From: Clostridia bacterium
GTDB lineage: Bacteria; Bacillota_A; Clostridia; Oscillospirales; CAG-382
Direction of reading: 5' to 3'
DNA length: 11,732 bases
Assembly (NCBI GenBank): GCA_017614095.1
Contig: JAGACN010000155.1
Location: 1-11,732 of the forward strand
Part shown: positions 25 to 10,456 of the stretch, piece after piece
How positions within the stretch are numbered: the first letter of the stretch is position 1
Layout of the letters: every line of letters starts with the position of its first letter
Program-made: the position numbers and the translations under genes
The notes under the pieces: model-generated
The model's database searches: none
What the model was told of the DNA's origin: nothing
What the model saw: the letters and a program-made list of their open reading frames with translations, nothing else

Positions 25-1959
25 ATGCCTTCCTATTTCGTACGCGTCTGTCTGAGCTATTCGTTTGCTCAGGAAATGAACGAGCGGGACATCTTTCCCG
101 TATCCGTTCTGGAACAGAACCTGCCCGCGGCTTTTCAGACCAAGCGCCTGTTTCACCGGTACACCTTCGGACTGCTTCAGATGGAAGCCGAGAACCCGAA
201 GGCCATCCGGGAAACGGTCAAGACCGTCTGGTCGGACCTGTATCCGAACCATCCGGACGCCGTCCGTCTGATGATTGCCCCCTCTTCGGAGGACGATATC
301 GGCAAACTGATGCGGTCCGTGTATACCGCCTACTACGGGGCGGAGCCCTATCTCGAGATGCTGACGGAGATCGCGGAGATGATCCCGCTGTTAAAGGAGC
401 GCGACGCGATGAAGGCCATCTCGACGCGCAGCTATCTGTTCGCCATCGATCCCGGCTGCGGCTTTACGACGCTGCTGTCCTCATTCGGAGACTTTCTCCG
501 CAGGATGGGCGTGTTCGGCGAGGAGGGCGAACAGCGGTCCAAATACATCGAGTACGTGCTGGGCAAGGAATCGGGCGGCGGGTGCATCGACGCGGACGAT
601 CTGGTCGGCGAACTGAAATCCGCCGAGGAGATCACGCTGAACGTGGTCGGCATGGACATTTCGTACTACCTGGAAGGGCAGAAGCTGGACGAGCTGAGAC
701 AGTTTGTCCGCCGGCTGCGCGATTTGGCCATGACGTACATCTTCGTTTTCCGCATTCCCTATCTGGAAACGAAGGCGATGAAGGATCTCGAGTCGGTACT
801 GGCGGACCAATTGGTCTTGCGAACGGTGGCCATCCCGCCGCTGCACAACCACGTGCTGCGCGAATTCTTCTGGGACGCGCTGAGCCGGTACGGCTACGCG
901 ATGGACGACGCGCTGGTGGAGACCTTTTACCGGAAACTGAACGAGGAACGGACGGACGGCCGATTCTACGGCTTCCGCACGGTGGACAAGATCGCGCGCG
1001 AAATCGTCTTGTGGAAAGCGCGGCACGACGCGGAGTCGGACGCGTGCGGCATCGAGGTCCAGAAGGACCGGATCGTGCCGGACGACCTGGCGAACTACGT
1101 GAAGGATCCGTCCGCCAAGAAGACCGGGTACGACGAACTGTCCGAACTGATCGGCATGGAGACCATTCGCGACCGCATCCGCGAGATCGTGTCCCAGGTC
1201 AAGATCTCCATGCAGAACGAACGGCTGGATCGCCCCTGCATCCATATGCGCTTCGTCGGCGCGCCGGGCACCGGTAAGACGACGGTCGCGCGCATCATCG
1301 GCAAGATCTTCCAGGAGGAGGGAATCCTGCGGAAGGGCGCCTTCCTGGAATACTCCGCGCGGAACCTGTGCGCGGAATACGTCGGCCAGACGGCAGTCAA
1401 GACGGCGGCCATCTGCCGCGACGCCTACGGGTCGGTCCTGTTCATCGACGAGGCGTACGCCCTGTACGAGAACACCCATCAGTCGAACGACTACGGCAAG
1501 GAGGCGCTGACCACCCTCATCTCGGAAATGGAGAACCACCGCGACGACATGATGGTCATCATGGCCGGCTATACGGACGACATGGAGACGCTGATGGAAG
1601 GGAACGCCGGTCTGCGCAGCCGCATGCCGTACGTGATCTCCTTCCCGAACTACACCCGCGACCAGCTGCACGCCATCTTCATGAGCATGGTGTCCAGACA
1701 TTTCGACTACACCCCGGAACTGGAAGCGGAGTCCAGGACGTATTTCAACGACCTGTCGGATTCCTTCGTCCAGTCGCGCGAATTCTCCAACGCCCGGTTC
1801 GTCCGGAACCTTTACGAACGGACCTGGTCCAAGGGCGCTTTGCGCGCGTCCATGGCCGGCCTGTCCCAGATCGCGCTGACGAAAGAGGATTTCATCGCCG
1901 CCAGCAGCGAGAAGGAATTCCGCGAAAAGCTCAAACAGACCATCAAGGTCGGCTTCTGA
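25..1959 (+). CDS. AAA+ ATPase of CbbX/SpoVK type with degenerate N-terminal P-loop module
   Basis: A complete 644-residue protein. The C-terminal half (about residues 365-640) is a CbbX/SpoVK-like AAA+ domain: Walker A GAPGTGKT at 412-419, Walker B VLFIDEAY at 471-478, and an arginine-finger segment GLRSRMP around 529-535 followed by FPNYT, typical of this subfamily. Such proteins remodel or disassemble partner proteins as ring oligomers using ATP. The N-terminal half is not recognised as a known domain, but residues 142-149 read DPGCGFTT, a P-loop shape in which the Walker lysine is Phe147. The hydrophobic strand at 238-245 (YIFVFRIP) lacks the Asp-Glu pair of a Walker B, so this may be a second, inactive AAA-like module. 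No signal peptide or membrane segment is evident. The start is supported by AAGGAG at 13-18, six bases before the ATG. The substrate is unknown; upstream genes lie outside the window. The gene converges on the minus-strand operon. Confidence 0.9.
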   Translation: MPSYFVRVCLSYSFAQEMNERDIFPVSVLEQNLPAAFQTKRLFHRYTFGLLQMEAENPKAIRETVKTVWSDLYPNHPDAVRLMIAPSSEDDIGKLMRSVYTAYYGAEPYLEMLTEIAEMIPLLKERDAMKAISTRSYLFAIDPGCGFTTLLSSFGDFLRRMGVFGEEGEQRSKYIEYVLGKESGGGCIDADDLVGELKSAEEITLNVVGMDISYYLEGQKLDELRQFVRRLRDLAMTYIFVFRIPYLETKAMKDLESVLADQLVLRTVAIPPLHNHVLREFFWDALSRYGYAMDDALVETFYRKLNEERTDGRFYGFRTVDKIAREIVLWKARHDAESDACGIEVQKDRIVPDDLANYVKDPSAKKTGYDELSELIGMETIRDRIREIVSQVKISMQNERLDRPCIHMRFVGAPGTGKTTVARIIGKIFQEEGILRKGAFLEYSARNLCAEYVGQTAVKTAAICRDAYGSVLFIDEAYALYENTHQSNDYGKEALTTLISEMENHRDDMMVIMAGYTDDMETLMEGNAGLRSRMPYVISFPNYTRDQLHAIFMSMVSRHFDYTPELEAESRTYFNDLSDSFVQSREFSNARFVRNLYERTWSKGALRASMAGLSQIALTKEDFIAASSEKEFREKLKQTIKVGF

Positions 1960-2036: not shown

Positions 2037-2606
2037 TTATCCGTTTTTTTGTTTCTCCTCGATCCGGTCGAAGATCTCCGCGCGCGACTTCGTACGGACG
2101 AAGTTGATGATGAAAAAGATCGCGGCAACTTCGTTGAACAGGACGCAGAAGACGATCATGCCGACCGCCGTGCAGCGCTTGCGCGCGACGGCAACGTCGG
2201 TATAGACGGCGGAGAGGTAGTAGCCTGCTTTCGGGGCCATCTTCAGACTGATGATCGCGCTGGGCAGCAGGACGAGCAGTCCGACGCACAGCCAGAAGAC
2301 GGCCGCCGCGCCGAAGACGACGAAGGTGCCGGCGCTGGTCTGCGGACTGTCGTACGTACGGCCGAGAACAAAACCCATGAGCGCAAGAAAGAAACCGCTC
2401 GAGATGAGGAAGATGGACGCGATCAGCGCAACGATCCCGCCGATCTTCCAGGCGATCCGTTCGCCGCGCAAAAGACCGGTCATTTGCTGCAGGGCGGCCG
2501 TTTCCTCTTCCGTATAGGCAGGCCCGTTGTCCTGCATGGCGCCGCACTGCGGGCAGGTGACGGCAAGATCGTCGATGACCATGCCGCAAGCTTTACATAC
2601 TTTCAT
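2037..2606 (-). CDS. Zinc-ribbon membrane protein, function unknown
   Basis: A 189-residue protein opening with a small zinc ribbon: Cys4-x2-Cys7 and Cys18-x2-Cys21, the second pair inside a CPQCG motif. A polar linker follows, then three hydrophobic segments at about 53-82, 93-120 and 145-168, the first long enough to make two crossings. The tail is charged and lysine-rich. This is the common 'zinc ribbon plus membrane helices' layout of Bacillota proteins, for which no biochemical role can be inferred. It is the last gene of the operon: its first 14 bases overlap the end of the VanZ-like gene, and the bidirectional terminator follows 28 bases after its stop. The start is supported by AGAAGG upstream of the ATG. 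A much longer antisense-like frame over the same DNA is composition-driven and was not accepted. Confidence 0.8.
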   Translation of the reverse strand: MKVCKACGMVIDDLAVTCPQCGAMQDNGPAYTEEETAALQQMTGLLRGERIAWKIGGIVALIASIFLISSGFFLALMGFVLGRTYDSPQTSAGTFVVFGAAAVFWLCVGLLVLLPSAIISLKMAPKAGYYLSAVYTDVAVARKRCTAVGMIVFCVLFNEVAAIFFIINFVRTKSRAEIFDRIEEKQKNG

Positions 2607-3117
2607 TTCGTAGTACCTTCTTTCTGTGGATTTTTCGCCGGATGGCCCGGATCAGCAGCGCGATCAGGAAGGCGATCAGGATGCCGGCCAGCGCGCCGCA
2701 GAGATCCAAAAGGACGTCCGACCATTGCGGGCCCCGCCCTTCGGAGCTGAGCTGGATGGCTTCGTCGGATAACGCGGTCAGGAAGCAAAGGAGCGGGCAG
2801 AGGAGATAGAGGAGCTTTTTCTTTCCGGCCGGCCGGAAGAACCAGACGGTCAGCAGCGTCAAAACGCCGAGTCCGAAGAATTCCGTGAAGTGCGCGGTCT
2901 TCCGGACGTAGTGGGAAATGTTTTCGTAGGTGGGCGGCACGTTGACGGCAGGCAGTATTTCCTCGTAGACGGGTTTGACCACTTCCACCACCTGCGCGCT
3001 CTGTTCGCCGGATTCTTCGGCGTCCTTCATGGAGTTGGAGAAGATCCAGATCTGCAAAGCGAGCGTCAGGACAAGGAAGACGATCGGGAGGATCAGACGT
3101 TTGCGGGACCGTTTCAT
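2593..3117 (-). CDS. VanZ-like family membrane protein
   Basis: A 174-residue membrane protein with hydrophobic segments at about 8-26, 76-95, 101-118 and 134-157 and a basic C-terminus. The VanZ-family signatures are present: FSNSM after the first helix, RKTAHFTEF at 72-80 before the second, and DEAIQ at 118-122 followed by GRGPQWSDVLLDLCG, the Asp-rich stretch before the last helix. VanZ from the vancomycin cluster confers low-level teicoplanin resistance, but most relatives sit in non-resistance settings and their activity is unknown. This copy should therefore not be called a resistance gene. Its ATG overlaps the recN stop as ATGA, with only a weak ribosome site, so translation is probably coupled to recN. 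Its 3' end overlaps the zinc-ribbon gene by 14 bases. Confidence 0.85.
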   Translation of the reverse strand: MKRSRKRLILPIVFLVLTLALQIWIFSNSMKDAEESGEQSAQVVEVVKPVYEEILPAVNVPPTYENISHYVRKTAHFTEFFGLGVLTLLTVWFFRPAGKKKLLYLLCPLLCFLTALSDEAIQLSSEGRGPQWSDVLLDLCGALAGILIAFLIALLIRAIRRKIHRKKVLRNESM

Positions 3118-4799
3118 GTCGCGTCACCGTGCAGCAGCTCCGCAGCCGCTTTCCGGACGGCGTCCGTGATCTGCAGACCGCCCATGATGCGGGACAGTTC
3201 GCTTATTCGGCCGGGCTCGTCCAGCAGTTCGACGGCCGTTTCCGTCCGTCCGCCGACGTCCGCTTTCGAAATGCGGTAATGGTTCTCGGCGCGGGCGGCC
3301 AGCTGCGCGGCGTGCGTGACGCAGATCACCTGCGAGCCGGTCTCTTCCGCGACGCGGGCCATCATGCGCCCGATCTTTTCGTTCGTTTTGCCGGAGATGC
3401 CGGCGTCGATCTCGTCGAAGATCATCGTCGGGGTCTGTTCGGCGTCCGCCAGCGCGAACTGCAGGCAGAGCATCATCCGGGACAGCTCGCCGCCGGAAGC
3501 GATCTTTCCGATCGGCTTGGGCTCCTCGCCGGCGTTGGCGCTGACCGCGAAGGAAACGAGGTCCGCGCCGTCCGGTCCGAACGTCCCGTTCCCGTCCCCG
3601 GCCGGCAGGACCGTGATGAGGAAACGGACATTCGGCATGTCCAGCTCCGTCAATGCCTGCCGGACGGATGTCGACAGGGTCTCGGCCGCTTTCTTTCGGG
3701 TGGCGGACAGTTCTTCCGCGGTGGAGAGCAGTTCTTTCTGTTTCTCTGTTAGCTTTTCCCGGATCTCTTCCAGGTCGTCTTCCGTCCGTCCGAGTTTGTC
3801 GAGATCCTCTTTGAGGGAAGCCGCTTTGGCGGCCAGTCCCGCTTCGTCCGTTTTGTATTTGCGTTCCAGTGAGGAAAGCAGATCCAGCCGGTCTTCCACC
3901 TTCTGCAGACGCGCGGCCGGGTTTTCGCCCGGCTCGGCGTACTGCTCCAGCGTTTCCGCAATATCCGTCAGTTCCGCTTTGACGTTGTCCAGCCGTTCCA
4001 GCAGTTCGTCGCCGTCGGGCAGCACGTCCGCAAGCCTGCGCAGCGCGTTCGAGGCGGTCCGGACGTCGGAAACGGCGGACCGATCGGACCGGTAGAGCGC
4101 CTGGTAGGCGGTACCGGCCTGCTCGGCGATGCGTTCGCGGTTGGCCAGCAGCGCGTGTTCGGCGGTCAGTTCCGCCTCTTCGCCGACGCGGATCCTGGCC
4201 TGTTCCAGTTCGTTCGCCTGGTAGGCCAGCAGGTCCCGCTTTTCCTCCAGCGCGTCCGCTTCCTTTTTCCGGTCCTCCAGTTCTTTCCGGAGGGCTCTCG
4301 CTTCGCCGTAGACGGCGCGGTAGCGGGCCTTCTGTTCGCCGTTCTTCGCGTAGGCGTCCAACAGTTCGCGCTGCCGCTCTTCGGTCGACAGCCCGATCGT
4401 GTCCTGCTGGCCGTGGATGTGGATGAGCAGGGGAGCGATCTCCCGCAGTTTGGACAGCGGAACGGCGCGTCCGTTTATTTTGACGGTCCCGCGCCCGTCC
4501 GCGAACAGACGGCGCTGGATGAACAGGTTCCCGTCTTCGTCCGGAGAAACGTCCGCTTCCGTCAGTTTGTCCCGGAGGATGCCTTCCGGCACGTAGAAGA
4601 GGCCTTCCGTCAGCGCGGAGTCCTCACCGGACCGGATCCGTTCCCGTTCGCCGCGGCTGCCGCACAGCAGACCGATGGCGTCGATCAGGATGCTCTTGCC
4701 CGCGCCGGTCTCGCCCGTGAACGCGGAAAAGCCGCCGTTCAGGTCCAGATCCAGCAGACGGATCAGAGCGATGTTTTCAATATGCAGTGACACCAGCAC
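3114..4799 (-). CDS. recN: DNA repair protein RecN (SMC-like ATPase)
   Basis: RecN is an SMC-like ATPase of double-strand-break repair that acts early at DNA ends in Gram-positive bacteria. At 561 residues this copy has the usual family length. Motifs in order: Walker A GETGAGKS at 29-36, Q-loop HGQQD at 129-133, a long charged heptad-like region about 155-380 forming the coiled-coil arms, ABC signature ASGGELSRM at 434-442, Walker B TMIFDEIDAG at 458-467, and the H-loop His496 in VTHAAQ. All nucleotide-binding elements are intact. The start is GTG at 4799, chosen because AAGGAGG lies eight bases upstream (4808-4814) and the resulting N-terminus (MLVSLHIENIALI) fits the family; the next in-frame GTG is too far from that site. 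It follows nadK after a 42-base gap and overlaps the VanZ-like gene by 4 bases. Confidence 0.97.
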   Translation of the reverse strand: MLVSLHIENIALIRLLDLDLNGGFSAFTGETGAGKSILIDAIGLLCGSRGERERIRSGEDSALTEGLFYVPEGILRDKLTEADVSPDEDGNLFIQRRLFADGRGTVKINGRAVPLSKLREIAPLLIHIHGQQDTIGLSTEERQRELLDAYAKNGEQKARYRAVYGEARALRKELEDRKKEADALEEKRDLLAYQANELEQARIRVGEEAELTAEHALLANRERIAEQAGTAYQALYRSDRSAVSDVRTASNALRRLADVLPDGDELLERLDNVKAELTDIAETLEQYAEPGENPAARLQKVEDRLDLLSSLERKYKTDEAGLAAKAASLKEDLDKLGRTEDDLEEIREKLTEKQKELLSTAEELSATRKKAAETLSTSVRQALTELDMPNVRFLITVLPAGDGNGTFGPDGADLVSFAVSANAGEEPKPIGKIASGGELSRMMLCLQFALADAEQTPTMIFDEIDAGISGKTNEKIGRMMARVAEETGSQVICVTHAAQLAARAENHYRISKADVGGRTETAVELLDEPGRISELSRIMGGLQITDAVRKAAAELLHGDAT

Positions 4800-4841: not shown

Positions 4842-5699
4842 CTAGGACAGCTTGCGCAGCAGCACTTCGTAGAAATTGGCGTTTTTCAGTTTGACCAGCC
4901 GCAGGCAGGAGGGCGACCGGGATACGGTCAGCCTGCCGCCTTCGGGCAGGGTGGAGACCACTTTGCCGTCGCAGGTCACGGCGGCGGAGCCCTCCGCGGC
5001 GATCTCCAGAACGGATTCCGGGGAGAAGACCATCGGATGGACGGAGGACAGCGTGAACGCGGCCAGCGGACAGAGCACCAGCGCGTTCAGTTTGGGGTCG
5101 ATGATGGGGCCGCCGGCGGACAGGTTGTAGGCCGACGAGCCGGTCGGGGTGGACAGGATCATGCCGTCCGCCCGGTAGCTGCTCACTTCGTGGCCGTCGC
5201 AATAGAGTTTCAGTTTCAGGATCTTCCCGGCCTGCTCCCGGCAGATGACCGTCTCGTTCAGCGCAAGGAAGGGGCCGGTCACGGCTCCGCTTACGTCCTT
5301 GACGGACACGTCCAGCAGCATCCGGTTTTCGACGGGCGCTTCGGACAGGCCGTCCAGCAGCTGCAGTTCGCCGGTCTCCAGTTCGGTCATGTATCCGACG
5401 TTGCCGAAATTGATGCCCAATAGCGGAATCGGTTCGCCCTGTCCGTTCGGGTGGGCGCACGCCAGGTGCGCGGCGCGCAGCATAGTGCCGTCGCCGCCCA
5501 GCACGACCGCGAGGTCGTTTTTCGCGAAGGCCGTTTCCGGCGCGCAGAAGGGAAGGCCGTCGCTCTCATAGGCTTTGTCCGTCACGCAGACGGTCCAGCC
5601 GAGCGTACGCAGTTTGTCCGTCACCGCGCGGAGCGGTTCCGCGGGCAGCGTTTTGCGTGTATTCGGATACAGGCATACGGTATGGGTTTGGATCCGCAT
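4842..5699 (-). CDS. nadK: NAD kinase
   Basis: This enzyme phosphorylates NAD to NADP in the cytoplasm, using ATP or polyphosphate, and is the only known route to NADP in most bacteria. The 285-residue protein has normal family length. Visible motifs are the GGDGT phosphate-binding loop at 68-72, the GINFGNVGYM segment at 95-104, the conserved Asn-Glu pair at 148-149 (ALNET), and the glycine-rich ADGMILSTPTGSSAY stretch at 177-191 with SAGGP after it. It starts three bases after the tlyA stop, with AAGGAG inside the 3' end of tlyA as ribosome site. In many Clostridia an argR gene follows nadK; here only 42 bases separate it from recN. Confidence 0.97.
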   Translation of the reverse strand: MRIQTHTVCLYPNTRKTLPAEPLRAVTDKLRTLGWTVCVTDKAYESDGLPFCAPETAFAKNDLAVVLGGDGTMLRAAHLACAHPNGQGEPIPLLGINFGNVGYMTELETGELQLLDGLSEAPVENRMLLDVSVKDVSGAVTGPFLALNETVICREQAGKILKLKLYCDGHEVSSYRADGMILSTPTGSSAYNLSAGGPIIDPKLNALVLCPLAAFTLSSVHPMVFSPESVLEIAAEGSAAVTCDGKVVSTLPEGGRLTVSRSPSCLRLVKLKNANFYEVLLRKLS

Positions 5700-5702
5700 G
5701 AG

Positions 5703-6443
5703 TCAGTTCTCCTTCCGAAAGAGCGCGAGGTATTCCCGGTTCCCGTCGCCGCCGAGGATGGGGGAATCCATCCATTGCATCAGCCGGAGTCCTTCTCCGG
5801 CAGCTGCGGCCTGCAGTCTGTCCAGGATCTTTTTGAACTTTTTGCCGTCCGGGTCGCGCACGATGCCGTTCTTTCCGACCAGTTCCGGGCCGGCTTCGAA
5901 TTGCGGCTTGATCAGGGTGATCAAGCGTCCGCCCTGCGGCAAAAGGGAGGACAACGCGGGATAGATCAGGGATTGCGAGATGAAGGACACGTCCATGACG
6001 GCCATGTCCGGCAGGAGCGGGAACAGGTCCTTCGTCATATAGCGGGCGTTGGTCTGCTCTATGCTGACCACGCGCGGGTCGGACCGGAGCGACGGATCCA
6101 GCTGTCCCTTCCCGACGTCGACCGCATAGACGGTCTTCGCGCCGCGCCGGAGCAGGCAGTCGGTGAACCCGCCGGTCGACGCGCCGACGTCCAATACCGT
6201 TTTGCCGGCGGGCGAGACGGAAAAGCCGTCCAGCGCGGCAGCCAGTTTCAGACCGGCCCGGGAGACGTAGGCGTCCGGTTCGGGATCGACGTCCAGAACG
6301 TCCGATGCGGACACGGGAAACGCGTTTTTGGTGACCGTCTGTCCGTTGACGCGGACGCGGCCTTCGGAAATGGCATCGACGGCTTTCGCGCGGCTGGGGA
6401 ACAGCCCGCGCTCCGTCAGTTCGCGGTCAAGTCTCATCGGCAT
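5703..6443 (-). CDS. tlyA: TlyA-family rRNA (cytidine-2'-O)-methyltransferase
   Basis: TlyA enzymes 2'-O-methylate cytidines of ribosomal RNA using S-adenosylmethionine. In mycobacteria loss of TlyA gives capreomycin resistance; the old label 'hemolysin' is historical. The 246-residue protein has an N-terminal S4 RNA-binding domain (about 3-60, with RLDRELTERGL at 4-14) and an FtsJ/RrmJ-like methyltransferase domain. The SAM-binding loop is LDVGASTGGF at 84-93. A likely catalytic Lys-Asp-Lys-Glu set is visible as Lys66, Asp151 (VMDVSF), Lys179 (IKPQFE) and Glu237 (NREYL). The chosen ATG at 6443 overlaps the end of dxs by 17 bases. A second ATG six bases further in is equally possible, since no strong ribosome site distinguishes them and translation is probably coupled to dxs. 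Confidence 0.95.
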   Translation of the reverse strand: MPMRLDRELTERGLFPSRAKAVDAISEGRVRVNGQTVTKNAFPVSASDVLDVDPEPDAYVSRAGLKLAAALDGFSVSPAGKTVLDVGASTGGFTDCLLRRGAKTVYAVDVGKGQLDPSLRSDPRVVSIEQTNARYMTKDLFPLLPDMAVMDVSFISQSLIYPALSSLLPQGGRLITLIKPQFEAGPELVGKNGIVRDPDGKKFKKILDRLQAAAAGEGLRLMQWMDSPILGGDGNREYLALFRKEN

Positions 6444-8295
6444 TTATCCACGTCTGGATCTCGGATGCGATCTGGTCGGGCTGGAACCCGCACAGCCGGA
6501 AGAGGTCTTCGTTGCTTCCGTGCGGGAGGAACCGGTCCTCCACGGCGCGGATGCGGAACTGCTGGCCGGCGGCCAGCCCGTTCTCGGCGAGCGACGAGAA
6601 GAGATGTTCGCCGACGCCGCCTTCCCGCATGCCCTCTTCGAGGAAATACAGATAGGGGATGTCCCGCGCGAGCACGCGGATCTTCTCGGGATTGAGCGGT
6701 TTGATCTTGACCAGTTTGATGATGCGGACGGAGATGCCCGCTTTATACAGCTCGTCCGCCGCCAGCAGCGCTTTTTCGGTGATGATGCCGTAGGTCATCA
6801 AAGCGACGGAGGGATTGCGTCCGAAGTCTAAGACGCGCGGCCCGCCGATGACGCGGAAAACGTCGCGGCGGTATTCTTTTTCGCCGCCTTTGGGATAGCG
6901 CACGACGGACGGTCCGTCCAGAGTCAGCGCCTCGCGCAGACAGCCGCGCAGTTCGTCGAAGGATTCCGGGGAATAGATGGTGAATCCGGGGAGCGCGTTG
7001 GCGAAGGAAACGTCGAAAATGCCGTGGTGGGTGACGCCGTCCGGCCCGACGAATCCGGCGCGGTCCAGGGCGAACACCACGGGCAGGTGCTGAATGGCGC
7101 AGTCGTGCAGCATCTGGTCGTAGCACCGCTGCGCGAACGTGGAGTAGACGGCGAACACGGGCCGCATCCCTTTGGCGGCCAGTCCGCACGCGAAGGTCGC
7201 CGCGTGTTCCTCCGCGATGCCGACGTCGAAGAAGCGGTCCGGGAACCGTTCCTGGAAGGGAATCAATCCGGTGCCGTCCGGCATGGCTGCCGTGATGGCG
7301 CAGATGCGCGGATCTTCTTCGGCCAGTTCGCACAGCAGATCGCCGAAGACGGAAGAGAAAGTGGGCTTGTCCGACGGACGGACGCCCTCCTCCAGGGAGA
7401 AGGGACCGACGCCGTGGTACAGGTCCGGGCGCTCTTCGGCAGGGGCGTAGCCCTTTCCTTTTTTCGTGCAGATGTGTACGACGGAGCATTTCCCGTCGTT
7501 TTTCGCTTCCGTCAGGATGGTCTCCAGCAGGCTTTCGTCGTTGCCGTCCAGCGGGCCGTAATAGGACAGGCCCAGATGCTCGAAGAAATTCTCGCGGACC
7601 AGGAGATGCTTGAATCCGCGCTTGATCCAGCTGCTGAACCGGACGAGTCCCTTGCCGATGAGCGGGATGCGAAGGAAGAACTGCTTGATCCTGTTCTTCA
7701 TCCGGTAGTATTTCGCGGAGTTGCGGAAGCGGCTGAGATAGTTGTCCATCGCGCCGACGTTTTTGGCGATGGACATGTTGTTGTCGTTCAAAATGATGAT
7801 GAGGTTGGCGCACGGGGCGCAGTTGTTCAGCGCTTCGAACGCCATGCCGCCGGTGAAGGCGCCGTCGCCCAGGACGGCAACGGTAATCGCGTCGGACCCG
7901 TTCAGCATGTTCGCGCGCGCGATGCCGACCGCGGCGGAAACGGAGGTGGAGCTGTGTCCGCATCCGAACGCGTCGCAATCCGATTCCTCCCGGTTCGGGA
8001 ATCCGGACAGACCGCCGTAGGTCCGGAGCGTGGACAGGCGGTCCCGGCGGCCGGTCAGCATTTTATGTACGTAGGACTGGTGGCCGACGTCGAACAGGAT
8101 GCTGTCTTCGGGGCAGGAAAACACGCGGTGAAGCGCGACGGTCAGTTCCACGGCGCCCAGGTTGGACGCGAGATGACCTCCGGTCGCCGAGACGGTCTCC
8201 AGCAGTTCTTGCCGGATCTCCTCGATGAGCGAAGGGATCTGCTCCGCCGGGATTTGTTTGATATCGTTCGGTTGTTGGATGGAATCGAGCAGCAT
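6427..8295 (-). CDS. dxs: 1-deoxy-D-xylulose-5-phosphate synthase
   Basis: Dxs condenses pyruvate with glyceraldehyde 3-phosphate to give DXP, the entry step of the MEP isoprenoid pathway and also a precursor of thiamine and pyridoxal. The protein has 622 residues, the usual length. Key elements are His41 in TGGHLASNLG, DVGHQSYVHK at 69-78, the thiamine-diphosphate motif GDGAFTGG at 143-150 ending at the Asn-rich LNDNNMSIA near 169-177, the catalytic Glu362 in GIAEEHA, and DRAG at 411-414 followed by THHG. The transketolase C-terminal domain starts near 490. It lies 49 bases after the OapA-like gene, with GAGG five bases before the ATG, and overlaps tlyA. IspA, which uses the downstream products of this pathway, is encoded just beyond the OLE RNA in the same operon. 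Confidence 0.97.
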   Translation of the reverse strand: MLLDSIQQPNDIKQIPAEQIPSLIEEIRQELLETVSATGGHLASNLGAVELTVALHRVFSCPEDSILFDVGHQSYVHKMLTGRRDRLSTLRTYGGLSGFPNREESDCDAFGCGHSSTSVSAAVGIARANMLNGSDAITVAVLGDGAFTGGMAFEALNNCAPCANLIIILNDNNMSIAKNVGAMDNYLSRFRNSAKYYRMKNRIKQFFLRIPLIGKGLVRFSSWIKRGFKHLLVRENFFEHLGLSYYGPLDGNDESLLETILTEAKNDGKCSVVHICTKKGKGYAPAEERPDLYHGVGPFSLEEGVRPSDKPTFSSVFGDLLCELAEEDPRICAITAAMPDGTGLIPFQERFPDRFFDVGIAEEHAATFACGLAAKGMRPVFAVYSTFAQRCYDQMLHDCAIQHLPVVFALDRAGFVGPDGVTHHGIFDVSFANALPGFTIYSPESFDELRGCLREALTLDGPSVVRYPKGGEKEYRRDVFRVIGGPRVLDFGRNPSVALMTYGIITEKALLAADELYKAGISVRIIKLVKIKPLNPEKIRVLARDIPYLYFLEEGMREGGVGEHLFSSLAENGLAAGQQFRIRAVEDRFLPHGSNEDLFRLCGFQPDQIASEIQTWINADET

Positions 8296-8344: not shown

Positions 8345-8950
8345 CTATTTCCGGAACCCGGTCAGGACGCGCGCGACGGCAAGTACGATCTTTTCGGAGT
8401 TGTCCATCGCGATGTGTTTGCCGACCGCCTTGAGCCCGACGATCAGCGCGGCGATCAGGGAGGTCAGGCAGAGGGTCAGCCAGAAAGCGCCCCTGCCGAT
8501 GACCAGCTGGGCGGCGATGACGGAACCCATCGCGCCGGAAACGACGCCGCAGATATCTCCGATGATGTCGTTGCAGAAGGAGGTCACCCTGGGGGAGTTG
8601 TTCACCAGCCAGACGGCCTTCTTCCCGGTCTTCAGACGGCGGGAGGCCATCGAATGGAAGGGGGAGGGGTCCGCGGTCGCGACGGCCAGTCCGATGATGT
8701 CGAACAGCACGCCGACCAGGATGAAGAAGACGAGCAGCAGGAATGAGAGAAAGACATTCTTCAGTTCGGCGATCTCACCGGTGCCGACGGAGATGACGGC
8801 CGTGATGAAGAAACTGAGCAGGAAGGCGAGGATGATCCAGCGGATCTTTTCTTTTTTGCGCTGCTGCGCTTTGTCCTTCCGGTGCGCGTTCTTTTTTGCA
8901 AACCCGTTTTCGGGCTGGTTTCCGTTGACGGATCGAGGAGGTTTTGACAT
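8345..8950 (-). CDS. oapA: OapA-like (OLE RNA-associated) integral membrane protein
   Basis: A 201-residue membrane protein. The first 36 residues are polar and strongly basic, suited to RNA contact. Hydrophobic segments follow at about 37-56, 66-90, 130-150 and 154-173. A loop rich in conserved-looking residues lies between the second and third: Asp84 within the second helix, PFHSMASRR at 97-105, then NSPRVTSFCNDIIGDICG at 118-135, with Asp128-x3-Asp132 at the membrane edge. Distant similarity to DUF21/CorB-type magnesium transport proteins is seen by eye. The family match rests on motifs, size and position: OapA of Bacillus halodurans is encoded between the OLE RNA and dxs, binds OLE RNA and holds it at the membrane, and a DxxxD motif has been reported as important for its role. 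The start at 8950 is chosen over an in-frame one at 9016 because AAGGA sits just upstream. A generic DUF21-like protein is the alternative. Confidence 0.75.
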   Translation of the reverse strand: MSKPPRSVNGNQPENGFAKKNAHRKDKAQQRKKEKIRWIILAFLLSFFITAVISVGTGEIAELKNVFLSFLLLVFFILVGVLFDIIGLAVATADPSPFHSMASRRLKTGKKAVWLVNNSPRVTSFCNDIIGDICGVVSGAMGSVIAAQLVIGRGAFWLTLCLTSLIAALIVGLKAVGKHIAMDNSEKIVLAVARVLTGFRK

Positions 8951-9030
8951 ACAATGTTCCTTAAAAAAATATAAATGATGGCGGTGCGAAACGTAAACTT
9001 TGCGGCATACGGTCAAGCAGGATTTCCCCG

Positions 9031-9056
9031 AAAAATACTTTCCGTTACCGGAAAAG
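9031..9056 (-). terminator. Terminator-like hairpin at the 3' end of the OLE RNA
   Basis: The minus strand reads TTTCCG-GTAA-CGGAAA (9054-9039), a 6-bp stem extendable by a G-U pair, with a GNRA-type loop, followed by G and TATTTTT (9037-9031). The short stem suggests partial termination with read-through into oapA, which has its own ribosome site 80 bases on but no clear promoter. Confidence 0.5.
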
Positions 9057-9526
9057 CGGTTCCCCTTTCAATTCTTCGCCGGGACATCGCTGTTCCCGGG
9101 GCTTGATTGCCTTAACAGTCCGCACTGCAATCCGTTTCGCACCTAAACTTCTCAGCCTAGGAGATTTCCTCACTAACCTACAGCACCGCCTAGTCCTTTT
9201 TTGCAGATACAATTTCAGAGTTTTCGGCTCATCCGCTGCACCCACTCAAGGCAGGCTACACCATCCACAGCGTCGAATACACGCACCGCATGATGGGTTT
9301 AATCTTTAATCTGTCAGGATTTCGGTCTACCGGCCTCACAGAGAAAAGCCTCCCGGGCAGTTGGGTCGGATCCGTATGCCATTACGGGCGGCCCAAAAGC
9401 CCTTTCTCCCAGCATCCACCCCAGACTGGGCGTAAGAAGCAGACACAAGGAGTTTCATCGATTTGCCTTTTCATGCGTTTTTAGGCACATGTCCGGCGGC
9501 CTTCGGTTAACTAGGATACTGCGCCA
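9031..9526 (-). ncRNA. ole: Probable OLE RNA (ornate, large, extremophilic)
   Basis: Between ispA and the OapA-like gene is a gap of about 600 bases with no credible protein gene on either strand and lower GC than its neighbours. OLE RNA lies in this spot in Bacillota genomes, on the operon strand, and forms a membrane ribonucleoprotein with OapA linked to alcohol, cold and magnesium responses. On the minus strand several local helices can be read: CATGTG/CGCATG (9486-9491 with 9472-9477), CCGTA/TACGG (9383-9387 with 9372-9376) enclosed by TTGGG/CCCAA (9392-9396 with 9361-9365), and CCGGGA/TCCCGG (9079-9084 with 9094-9099) capped by a GCGA tetraloop after a single bulge. Ends are estimated from a candidate promoter and a terminator-like hairpin, giving about 495 nt, somewhat shorter than the roughly 600 nt usual. 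The call is from context and structure, not from an alignment to the OLE consensus. Confidence 0.75.
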
Positions 9527-9531
9527 TCCTT

Positions 9532-9560
9532 TTTATACAGATGAAACCGGACGGTTTCAG
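9532..9560 (-). promoter_or_regulatory. Candidate sigma-A promoter for the OLE RNA
   Basis: On the minus strand, CTGAAA (9560-9555, 4/6 to TTGACA) is followed by exactly 17 bases and TATAAA (9537-9532, 5/6 to TATAAT). Transcription would begin near 9525, just where the non-coding region starts. The -35 overlaps the ispA stop codon. A promoter here would let the RNA be made in excess over the operon mRNA. Confidence 0.4.
9542..9559. repeat. Palindrome over the ispA stop codon
   Basis: TGAAACCG and CGGTTTCA form an 8-bp inverted repeat with a two-base centre. On the minus strand it begins with the TGA stop of ispA and fills most of the spacer of the candidate OLE promoter. It lacks a following U-run, so it is not a normal terminator. 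It could be an operator or an RNA processing hairpin, or chance. Confidence 0.5.
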
Positions 9561-10456
9561 TTCTGTCGGGATAAAATGAATTCGCAATACTGAACGAGCG
9601 CGGATTTCGGTTCGGAATCCGGGAATCCGTCCAGCAGCTTTTTCGCCTCCCGGCACAGGGAAGCGGCATAGTTTTTTGCCTCTTCCTCGCCGAGCAGGGC
9701 GGGGAAGGTGCTCTTTTCGGACGCCAGGTCCTTGCCCGGCGTTTTGCCGAGTTCCTCGGCGGTCGCGTGGAGATCCAGCAGATCGTCCGCAATCTGGAAC
9801 GCCAGCCCGGTCAGACGGCCGAACCGCGACGCGGATCCCAGAAAAGCATCCGGGTCGTCCGGGCCGGATATACAGCCCAGCATGCAGGCCGCCGCGAACA
9901 GCGCGCCGGTCTTCCGGTCGACCAGTTGTTCCAATACGTCGCGCGGGATCACCTCATGCTCGGACTGCAGATCGATCTGCTGTCCGCCGCACATGCCTTC
10001 GTAGCCTGCCTGAGAGGACAGGATGCGTACGGCAAGCAGGTTGCGTTCCGGCGATACCCGGGGGTTGAGCGCCACCGTTTCGACCGCTTTCAGGGCGAGC
10101 GCGTCGCCGGCCAGCAGCGCCGTGGCGGAACCGTAGACCATATGGTTGGTCGGCTTTCCCCTGCGGATGGTGTCGTTGTCCATCTCCGGCAGATCGTCGT
10201 GGATCAAGGAGAAGGCATGCATCATTTCCAGTCCGGCCGCGTAATGCAGCGCGTCCGCGCGCTTTCCTCCGCACAGTTCGCAGAAGGTGAGCGTCAGAAA
10301 CGCGCGCAGCCGTTTGCCGCCGGCCAGAAGGGAATAGCGCATGGATTCGTTCAGCAGGCGTGCGGGATCCCGCTCCGGCGGGAGCAGTTCCTCCAATGCC
10401 TTCGCCGTTTCTTGCGCGCAGGCGTCCAGCCGTTTACGCAGCAGTTCCGCGCTCAT
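9557..10456 (-). CDS. ispA: Farnesyl diphosphate synthase (short-chain polyprenyl synthase)
   Basis: The enzyme adds isopentenyl diphosphate units to dimethylallyl diphosphate, making FPP for undecaprenyl phosphate, quinones and other products. Its 299 residues show the full polyprenyl synthase pattern: LLAGGKRLR at 43-51, first aspartate-rich motif DDLPEMD at 87-93, RRGKPTNH at 98-105, GQQID at 158-162, and second aspartate-rich motif DDLLD at 224-228 followed by KTPGKD at 238-243. Phe82, five residues before the first aspartate, is a bulky aromatic as expected for a C15 product limit; a GGPP role is less likely. The ATG overlaps the xseB stop by 4 bases (ATGA), so translation is likely coupled. 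Its stop codon overlaps the palindrome and candidate promoter of the following RNA gene. Confidence 0.95.
   Translation of the reverse strand: MSAELLRKRLDACAQETAKALEELLPPERDPARLLNESMRYSLLAGGKRLRAFLTLTFCELCGGKRADALHYAAGLEMMHAFSLIHDDLPEMDNDTIRRGKPTNHMVYGSATALLAGDALALKAVETVALNPRVSPERNLLAVRILSSQAGYEGMCGGQQIDLQSEHEVIPRDVLEQLVDRKTGALFAAACMLGCISGPDDPDAFLGSASRFGRLTGLAFQIADDLLDLHATAEELGKTPGKDLASEKSTFPALLGEEEAKNYAASLCREAKKLLDGFPDSEPKSALVQYCEFILSRQN

Follow-up and report, generated by a model that had tools for sequence, protein, structure and literature searches.

An OLE RNA-OapA locus with a truncated P9.3 arm in an uncultured Clostridia lineage

The stretch of DNA analysed here (11,732 nucleotides, hereafter the window) carries the gene order ispA-OLE-oapA-dxs-tlyA-nadK-recN (Table 1). 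A first-pass annotation, made from the letters alone, had read this order as ispA, an RNA, a membrane protein and then dxs to recN, and the neighbours were confirmed by Pfam and NCBIfam. It had also described the interval between ispA and oapA as a structured, non-coding gap of roughly 600 bases, lower in GC and on the operon strand, and had taken it to be OLE RNA, which ranks with the largest structured RNAs of bacteria whose chemistry is not known. Both points are borne out by the covariance-model search: a minus-strand match to the Rfam OLE model (RF01071), the sole match at gathering level within the window, fills nearly all of the gap and spans the full model (positions 1-616 of 616), scoring 384.3 bits where the gathering score is 50 (E = 4.2e-110), a value at which a chance match was rejected. 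No ORF of at least 80 aa lies wholly within the gap on either strand, and a protein-coding gap was rejected on this ground. The GC content of the gap is about 50% (0.50 for OLE itself) as against about 60% in the flanks; the annotation had called a copy in a GC-rich lineage informative, but such a GC content is not unusual, the OLEs compared having values between 0.37 and 0.56. For 34 aligned OLEs including that of the window, RNAalifold gave 150 consensus pairs, 83 of them with at least one two-sided change that kept the pair. The window carries a genuine copy of OLE beside its membrane partner gene in an uncultured, gut-type Clostridia lineage; OLE-OapA is a known system, and its RNA has been described from gut microbes before (PMC11332333).

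Table 1. Features of the OLE-oapA locus, with positions in the window.
Feature	Position	Strand	Basis
ispA, farnesyl diphosphate synthase	9557..10456	-	NF045485, 275.5 bits vs 275
OLE RNA (RF01071), 582 nt, whole model	8962..9543	-	covariance-model match
P3/P3.1, 5' side	9495..9509	-	12 pairs, 94.1% of cells paired
A-rich L4 loop CCUAAAAA, bridge B1 of the published dimer (PMC12286853, PMC12265935)	9478..9485	-	identical in 34/34 aligned OLEs
Truncated P9.3 arm, 13 nt, GAG CCGAAAA CUC, between P9 GGAU and UGAAA motifs	9218..9230	-	model skip and arm survey
P3/P3.1, 3' side	9174..9190	-	12 pairs, 94.1% of cells paired
oapA, membrane protein of CNNM type (201 aa, DxxxD motif)	8345..8950	-	PF01595, 29.8 bits (cut-off 28.4)
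dxs, 1-deoxy-D-xylulose-5-phosphate synthase	6427..8295	-	TIGR00204
tlyA-type rRNA methyltransferase	5703..6443	-	TIGR00478
nadK, NAD kinase	4842..5699	-	PF20143, PF01513
recN	3114..4799	-	TIGR00634

The protein that follows the RNA matches the CNNM domain narrowly above the Pfam cut-off. As previously noted, it has a basic N-terminus, which is rich in K and R, and a DxxxD motif; the motif reads DIIGD (D127/D131) and is invariant in all 22 aligned sequences (that of the window and 21 chosen among the 120 listed of 432 homologues). DxxxD has been described as a distinctive feature of OapA that is absent from CNNM domains (PMC11332333). Pfam detected neither a CBS nor a CorC_HlyC domain in the protein, for which reason MpfA was rejected, and the earlier assignment to OapA stands. 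The mechanical list of ORFs begins this gene at TTG 9016, inside OLE; a start at ATG 8950 is more likely, as this codon lies past the end of the RNA (8962). Only 11 bases separate the OLE match from this start codon, and dxs follows oapA in 10 of the 12 related loci compared, an arrangement that would also suit an OLE acting mainly in cis, as a leader regulating oapA and dxs, instead of as a free RNA. However, OLE of H. halodurans is an abundant RNA that acts in a membrane RNP (PMC12265935), and we attach very little probability to a leader function.

In the same comparison of 12 loci, which used the window's proteins as queries, oapA has ispA upstream and dxs downstream in eight (L157, L003, L011, L004, L006, L008, L009 and L046); L012 and L166, the latter on a contig that ends early, have oapA-dxs with no ispA match, and in L021 and L044 oapA alone of the window's neighbour proteins was recognised. 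From this comparison, near relatives share ispA-oapA-dxs and the order varies further out. Within the window, a gap of 42 bases, without argR, separates nadK from recN; the nearest related genome (G001) has a single argR match, on another contig, where by eye it lies beside amino-acid ABC transporter-like genes. Downstream of recN are a VanZ-like protein (2593-3117, minus strand), a small protein without an NCBIfam match (2037-2606, minus strand) and, on the opposite strand, an AAA ATPase (25-1959, plus strand).

The first-pass annotation made no mention of a missing P9.3 arm. The covariance model skips about 46 P9 positions in the window copy, leaving a short stump between two P9 motifs (Table 1). 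Three kinds of RNA-RNA bridge have been proposed for an OLE dimer from cryo-EM, and in the third, B3, the L9.3 apex forms a symmetric kissing loop whose tetranucleotide switches among GGCC, GAUC and AGCU, with covariation at the apex in support (PMC12286853). We could read arms at 99 of 112 loci and counted 91 as distinct, because some loci represent the same genome twice; 78 of these are 49-61 nt long and the other 13 are 9-28 nt. Every one of the 78 long arms has GGCC (57) or AGCU (21) within its central 18 nt, and this position, together with the shared tetranucleotides, suggests that the surveyed arm is the published P9.3. The 13 loci at which the search expression returned no arm stand outside these counts: L022 and L029 have full GGCC arms, L030 and L069 have P9 spans of full length, the full arm of L081 (G028) has a central UCGA, and the eight others include L007, whose OLE runs off its contig, and L005, which has no OLE match. 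Reading GUCGAC, the middle of the L081 arm adds a self-complementary form to the three named in PMC12286853.

A self-complementary tetranucleotide occurs in mid-arm in all 23 full arms of the 34-sequence alignment. Ten of the 12 short arms checked lack all four forms (GGCC, AGCU, GAUC and UCGA), and the remaining two, L102 and L107, have a self-complementary tetranucleotide at the first base of the arm only. None of the four forms is present in the 13-nt arm of the window, which is without the P9.3 arm and self-complementary L9.3 loop of the published three-bridge dimer. When arms were folded alone, the hairpin loops predicted by RNAfold exposed a self-complementary 4-mer for 12 of the 23 full arms and for none of the 11 short arms; since these loops discriminate poorly (12/23 full arms), the argument about the apex rests on sequence position. 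Predicted loops of short arms include GAAA (G002, G027) and UUCG (G025). For the 13 nt of the window alone RNAfold predicted no pairing, and by eye a GAG/CUC stem around CCGAAAA is possible. A subclade without P9.3 (L002, L003, L102 and L105, from G002, G003, G025 and G027) has a GC-rich extension of P8 of about 25 nt.

The 11 short-arm OLEs (the window and ten genomes) form a single clade (100/100) in a tree built from 34 OLE cores after removal of the arm columns. The nearest relative, L001 in G001, is titled 'uncultured Ruminococcus sp. isolate RUG12874', where we take RUG to stand for rumen genomes; its OapA is 76% and its OLE core 92% identical to those of the window. Several other close loci come, by their assembly titles, from gut samples of rabbit, deer, yak and goat. 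Two further OLEs lack the arm. L165 (G107), outside the 63-genome GTDB family of G001, has UAUC-GUAA-GAUA in its place within a full-length OLE match (351.9 bits), on a contig that also bears oapA and dxs, and L021, from an assembly titled Bacilli, has no P9.3 arm and has oapA downstream. A broader tree that includes both, with 2 of 37 sequences left out as they did not parse, requires three changes of arm state. Grouping of the window clade with L165, a sequence of unsure placement because of its long branch, was rejected (p = 0.02), as was a single loss common to the window clade and L021 (p = 0.0005, tree without L165). P9.3 was thus lost once in the window clade and separately in L165 and L021. 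In an even sample of the order (394 genomes), strict patterns that miss divergent OLEs recovered 8 short and 71 full arms, and seven of the eight short arms belong to the window clade.

The loops assigned to the other bridges are retained. L4 does not vary across the alignment (Table 1), L5.1 reads CGCCCAG in 11/11 short-arm and 17/23 full-arm OLEs (the other six vary), and L6.1 in the short-arm OLEs is AAUGGCAU (9/11) or AACGGCAU (2/11). Judged by sequence only, the L4 and L5.1/L6.1 contact loops of the published three-bridge dimer are present in the window; bridge B2 also involves an L7 contact (PMC12286853). This bears on whether a short-arm OLE might no longer dimerise and might act as a monomer with OapA, a reading prompted by the loss of B3, one published dimer bridge and one with covariation behind it (PMC12286853). 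An interface released from pairing should drift, but the L4 and L5/L6 loops did not, and we therefore regard a monomer as improbable.

The P3/P3.1 helix, which has been proposed to cross the membrane (PMC12265935), is likewise kept. The proportion of its cells that are paired (Table 1) compares with 70.8% in shuffles, and 102 cells have two-sided changes compared with 33.9 in shuffles, values that 0 of 500 shuffles equalled in either case; two-sided changes are found in 11 of the 12 pairs, a count reached by 30 of the 500. Because the structure was derived from the same alignment, this test favours it over the slid controls. By eye, two GNRA-capped hairpins of domain 2 remain in the window OLE, one of which should be the OapB site. 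At one G of the GAUGAAG motif, shared by the 33 other aligned sequences, the window has an A, which is also found in some more distant OLEs (L029). This substitution, along with the disappearance of about 40 nt from an arm that most relatives keep long, might be taken to mean that the ole gene of the window is decaying and no longer functional. Yet the short form is maintained in 11 related sequences with a conserved core, the covarying helices are kept and OapA is intact alongside, so that decay seems to us most unlikely.

Partner proteins were surveyed in the 63 genomes of the GTDB family of G001, with OapB, OapC and CorC sought in relatives only. OLE is present in 32 genomes, and OapA in the same 32 and in G007, which has no OLE match. 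CorC_HlyC proteins, counted by PF03471, which alone is no proof of MpfA identity, are found in 2 of the 32 genomes with OLE as opposed to 26 of the 31 without it (Fisher p = 1.5e-10). Within one family, these counts repeat the published anticorrelation of MpfA and OLE (PMC11332333). Since OLE/OapA and CorC-type proteins swap almost cleanly, the published idea that they are alternatives becomes testable among close relatives. Two genomes, G014 and G065, have both OLE/OapA and CorC_HlyC, against the near-exclusive pattern of the family.

An OapB homologue was identified through its similarity to the OapB in PDB 7k9b (E = 1.8e-9). At E values up to 0.01 it occurs in 36 of 63 genomes, 22/32 with OLE and 14/31 without (p = 0.08), in draft assemblies whose absences are weak evidence; the nearest genome gives only a weak match (29.8 bits, 33% identity). 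OapB is present in seven of the 10 genomes with a short arm and in 15 of the 21 with a full arm (p = 1), G022 being left out of this comparison with its OLE cut by a contig end. Arm loss therefore does not follow OapB, and a loss of P9.3 tied to that of OapB was rejected. L7Ae-family matches, present in 53 of the 63 genomes, are not specific to YbxF (OapC).

Taken together, it is probable that the window holds a functional OLE-OapA locus whose RNA pairs with itself via L4 and L5.1/L6.1 and works without the P9.3 clasp. The transcription, dimerisation, membrane placement and function that we presume for this OLE would fit together as follows. OLE would be transcribed within an ispA-oapA-dxs operon, and OapA would bind the RNA and hold it at the membrane, as in the published model, where the particle serves responses to stress and Mg2+ (PMC12265935). 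The particle of the window would serve such stress and Mg2+ tasks, which CorC/MpfA-type proteins seem to cover in relatives without OLE. In the window clade the loops L4 and L5.1/L6.1 would still provide self-pairing of the RNA, and with the P9.3 arm and its kissing loop cut to a short stump, the particle would work without the P9 arch. The locus can persist without the B3 clasp, and dimerisation is expected to proceed via L4 and L5/L6 alone.

Whether the P9 arch is more generally an optional module, with B3 discarded at least three times, sometimes in favour of an ordinary tetraloop cap, and with the L4/L5/L6 contacts and OapA kept, is a proposition that we hold in even balance. If it is correct, the essential OLE dimer would be the one held by two bridges, and the arch would have a separable task that is specific to certain lineages, for example the linking of particles or regulation. 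As the window copy is without the P9.3 arm, the proposed role of this arm in clasping OLE molecules can be tested. A natural, repeatedly evolved OLE that lacks one bridge shows which dimer contacts evolution insists on, and the short-arm form, as a smaller RNA, lends itself to resolving the flexible parts.

Several known systems resemble the one described here. MpfA and the CorC family distantly share the CNNM domain with OapA, but they differ in the CBS and CorC_HlyC domains that the window's protein lacks and are nearly exclusive with OLE in the family. With the full-length OLE class (RF01071; H. halodurans, C. acetobutylicum) the window copy shares the whole core, P3/P3.1, L4, L5.1, L6.1, the two domain 2 hairpins seen by eye, a downstream oapA and isoprenoid-gene neighbours; unlike that class, it is without the P9.3 arm and its self-complementary loop. 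The titles and abstract openings of the OLE structure and dimer literature, among the matches listed, indicate no natural loss of P9.3, and the available part of PMC12265935 contains no discussion of a natural loss of the P9 contact. According to that source P7 and P8 make no dimer contacts, a possible reason for their absence from some OLEs (PMC12265935). Variant 2 (RF39 clade), also a reduced OLE, is without P7 and P8, whereas the window keeps both and is without P9.3. Variant 1 has shorter P7, P8 and P9, often lacks the OapB site and is commonest in TANB77 (PMC11332333); its bit-score limits use another model, and the window was set against it by description. The shortened P9 is common to both, but in the window neither P7 nor P8 is shorter than the Rfam consensus, P7 being shorter than in many sister sequences, and both domain 2 hairpins remain. 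Because variant 1 already has shorter P9 stems, the short-arm OLE is best described as a sharper subtype, not a new kind, and may sit inside variant 1.
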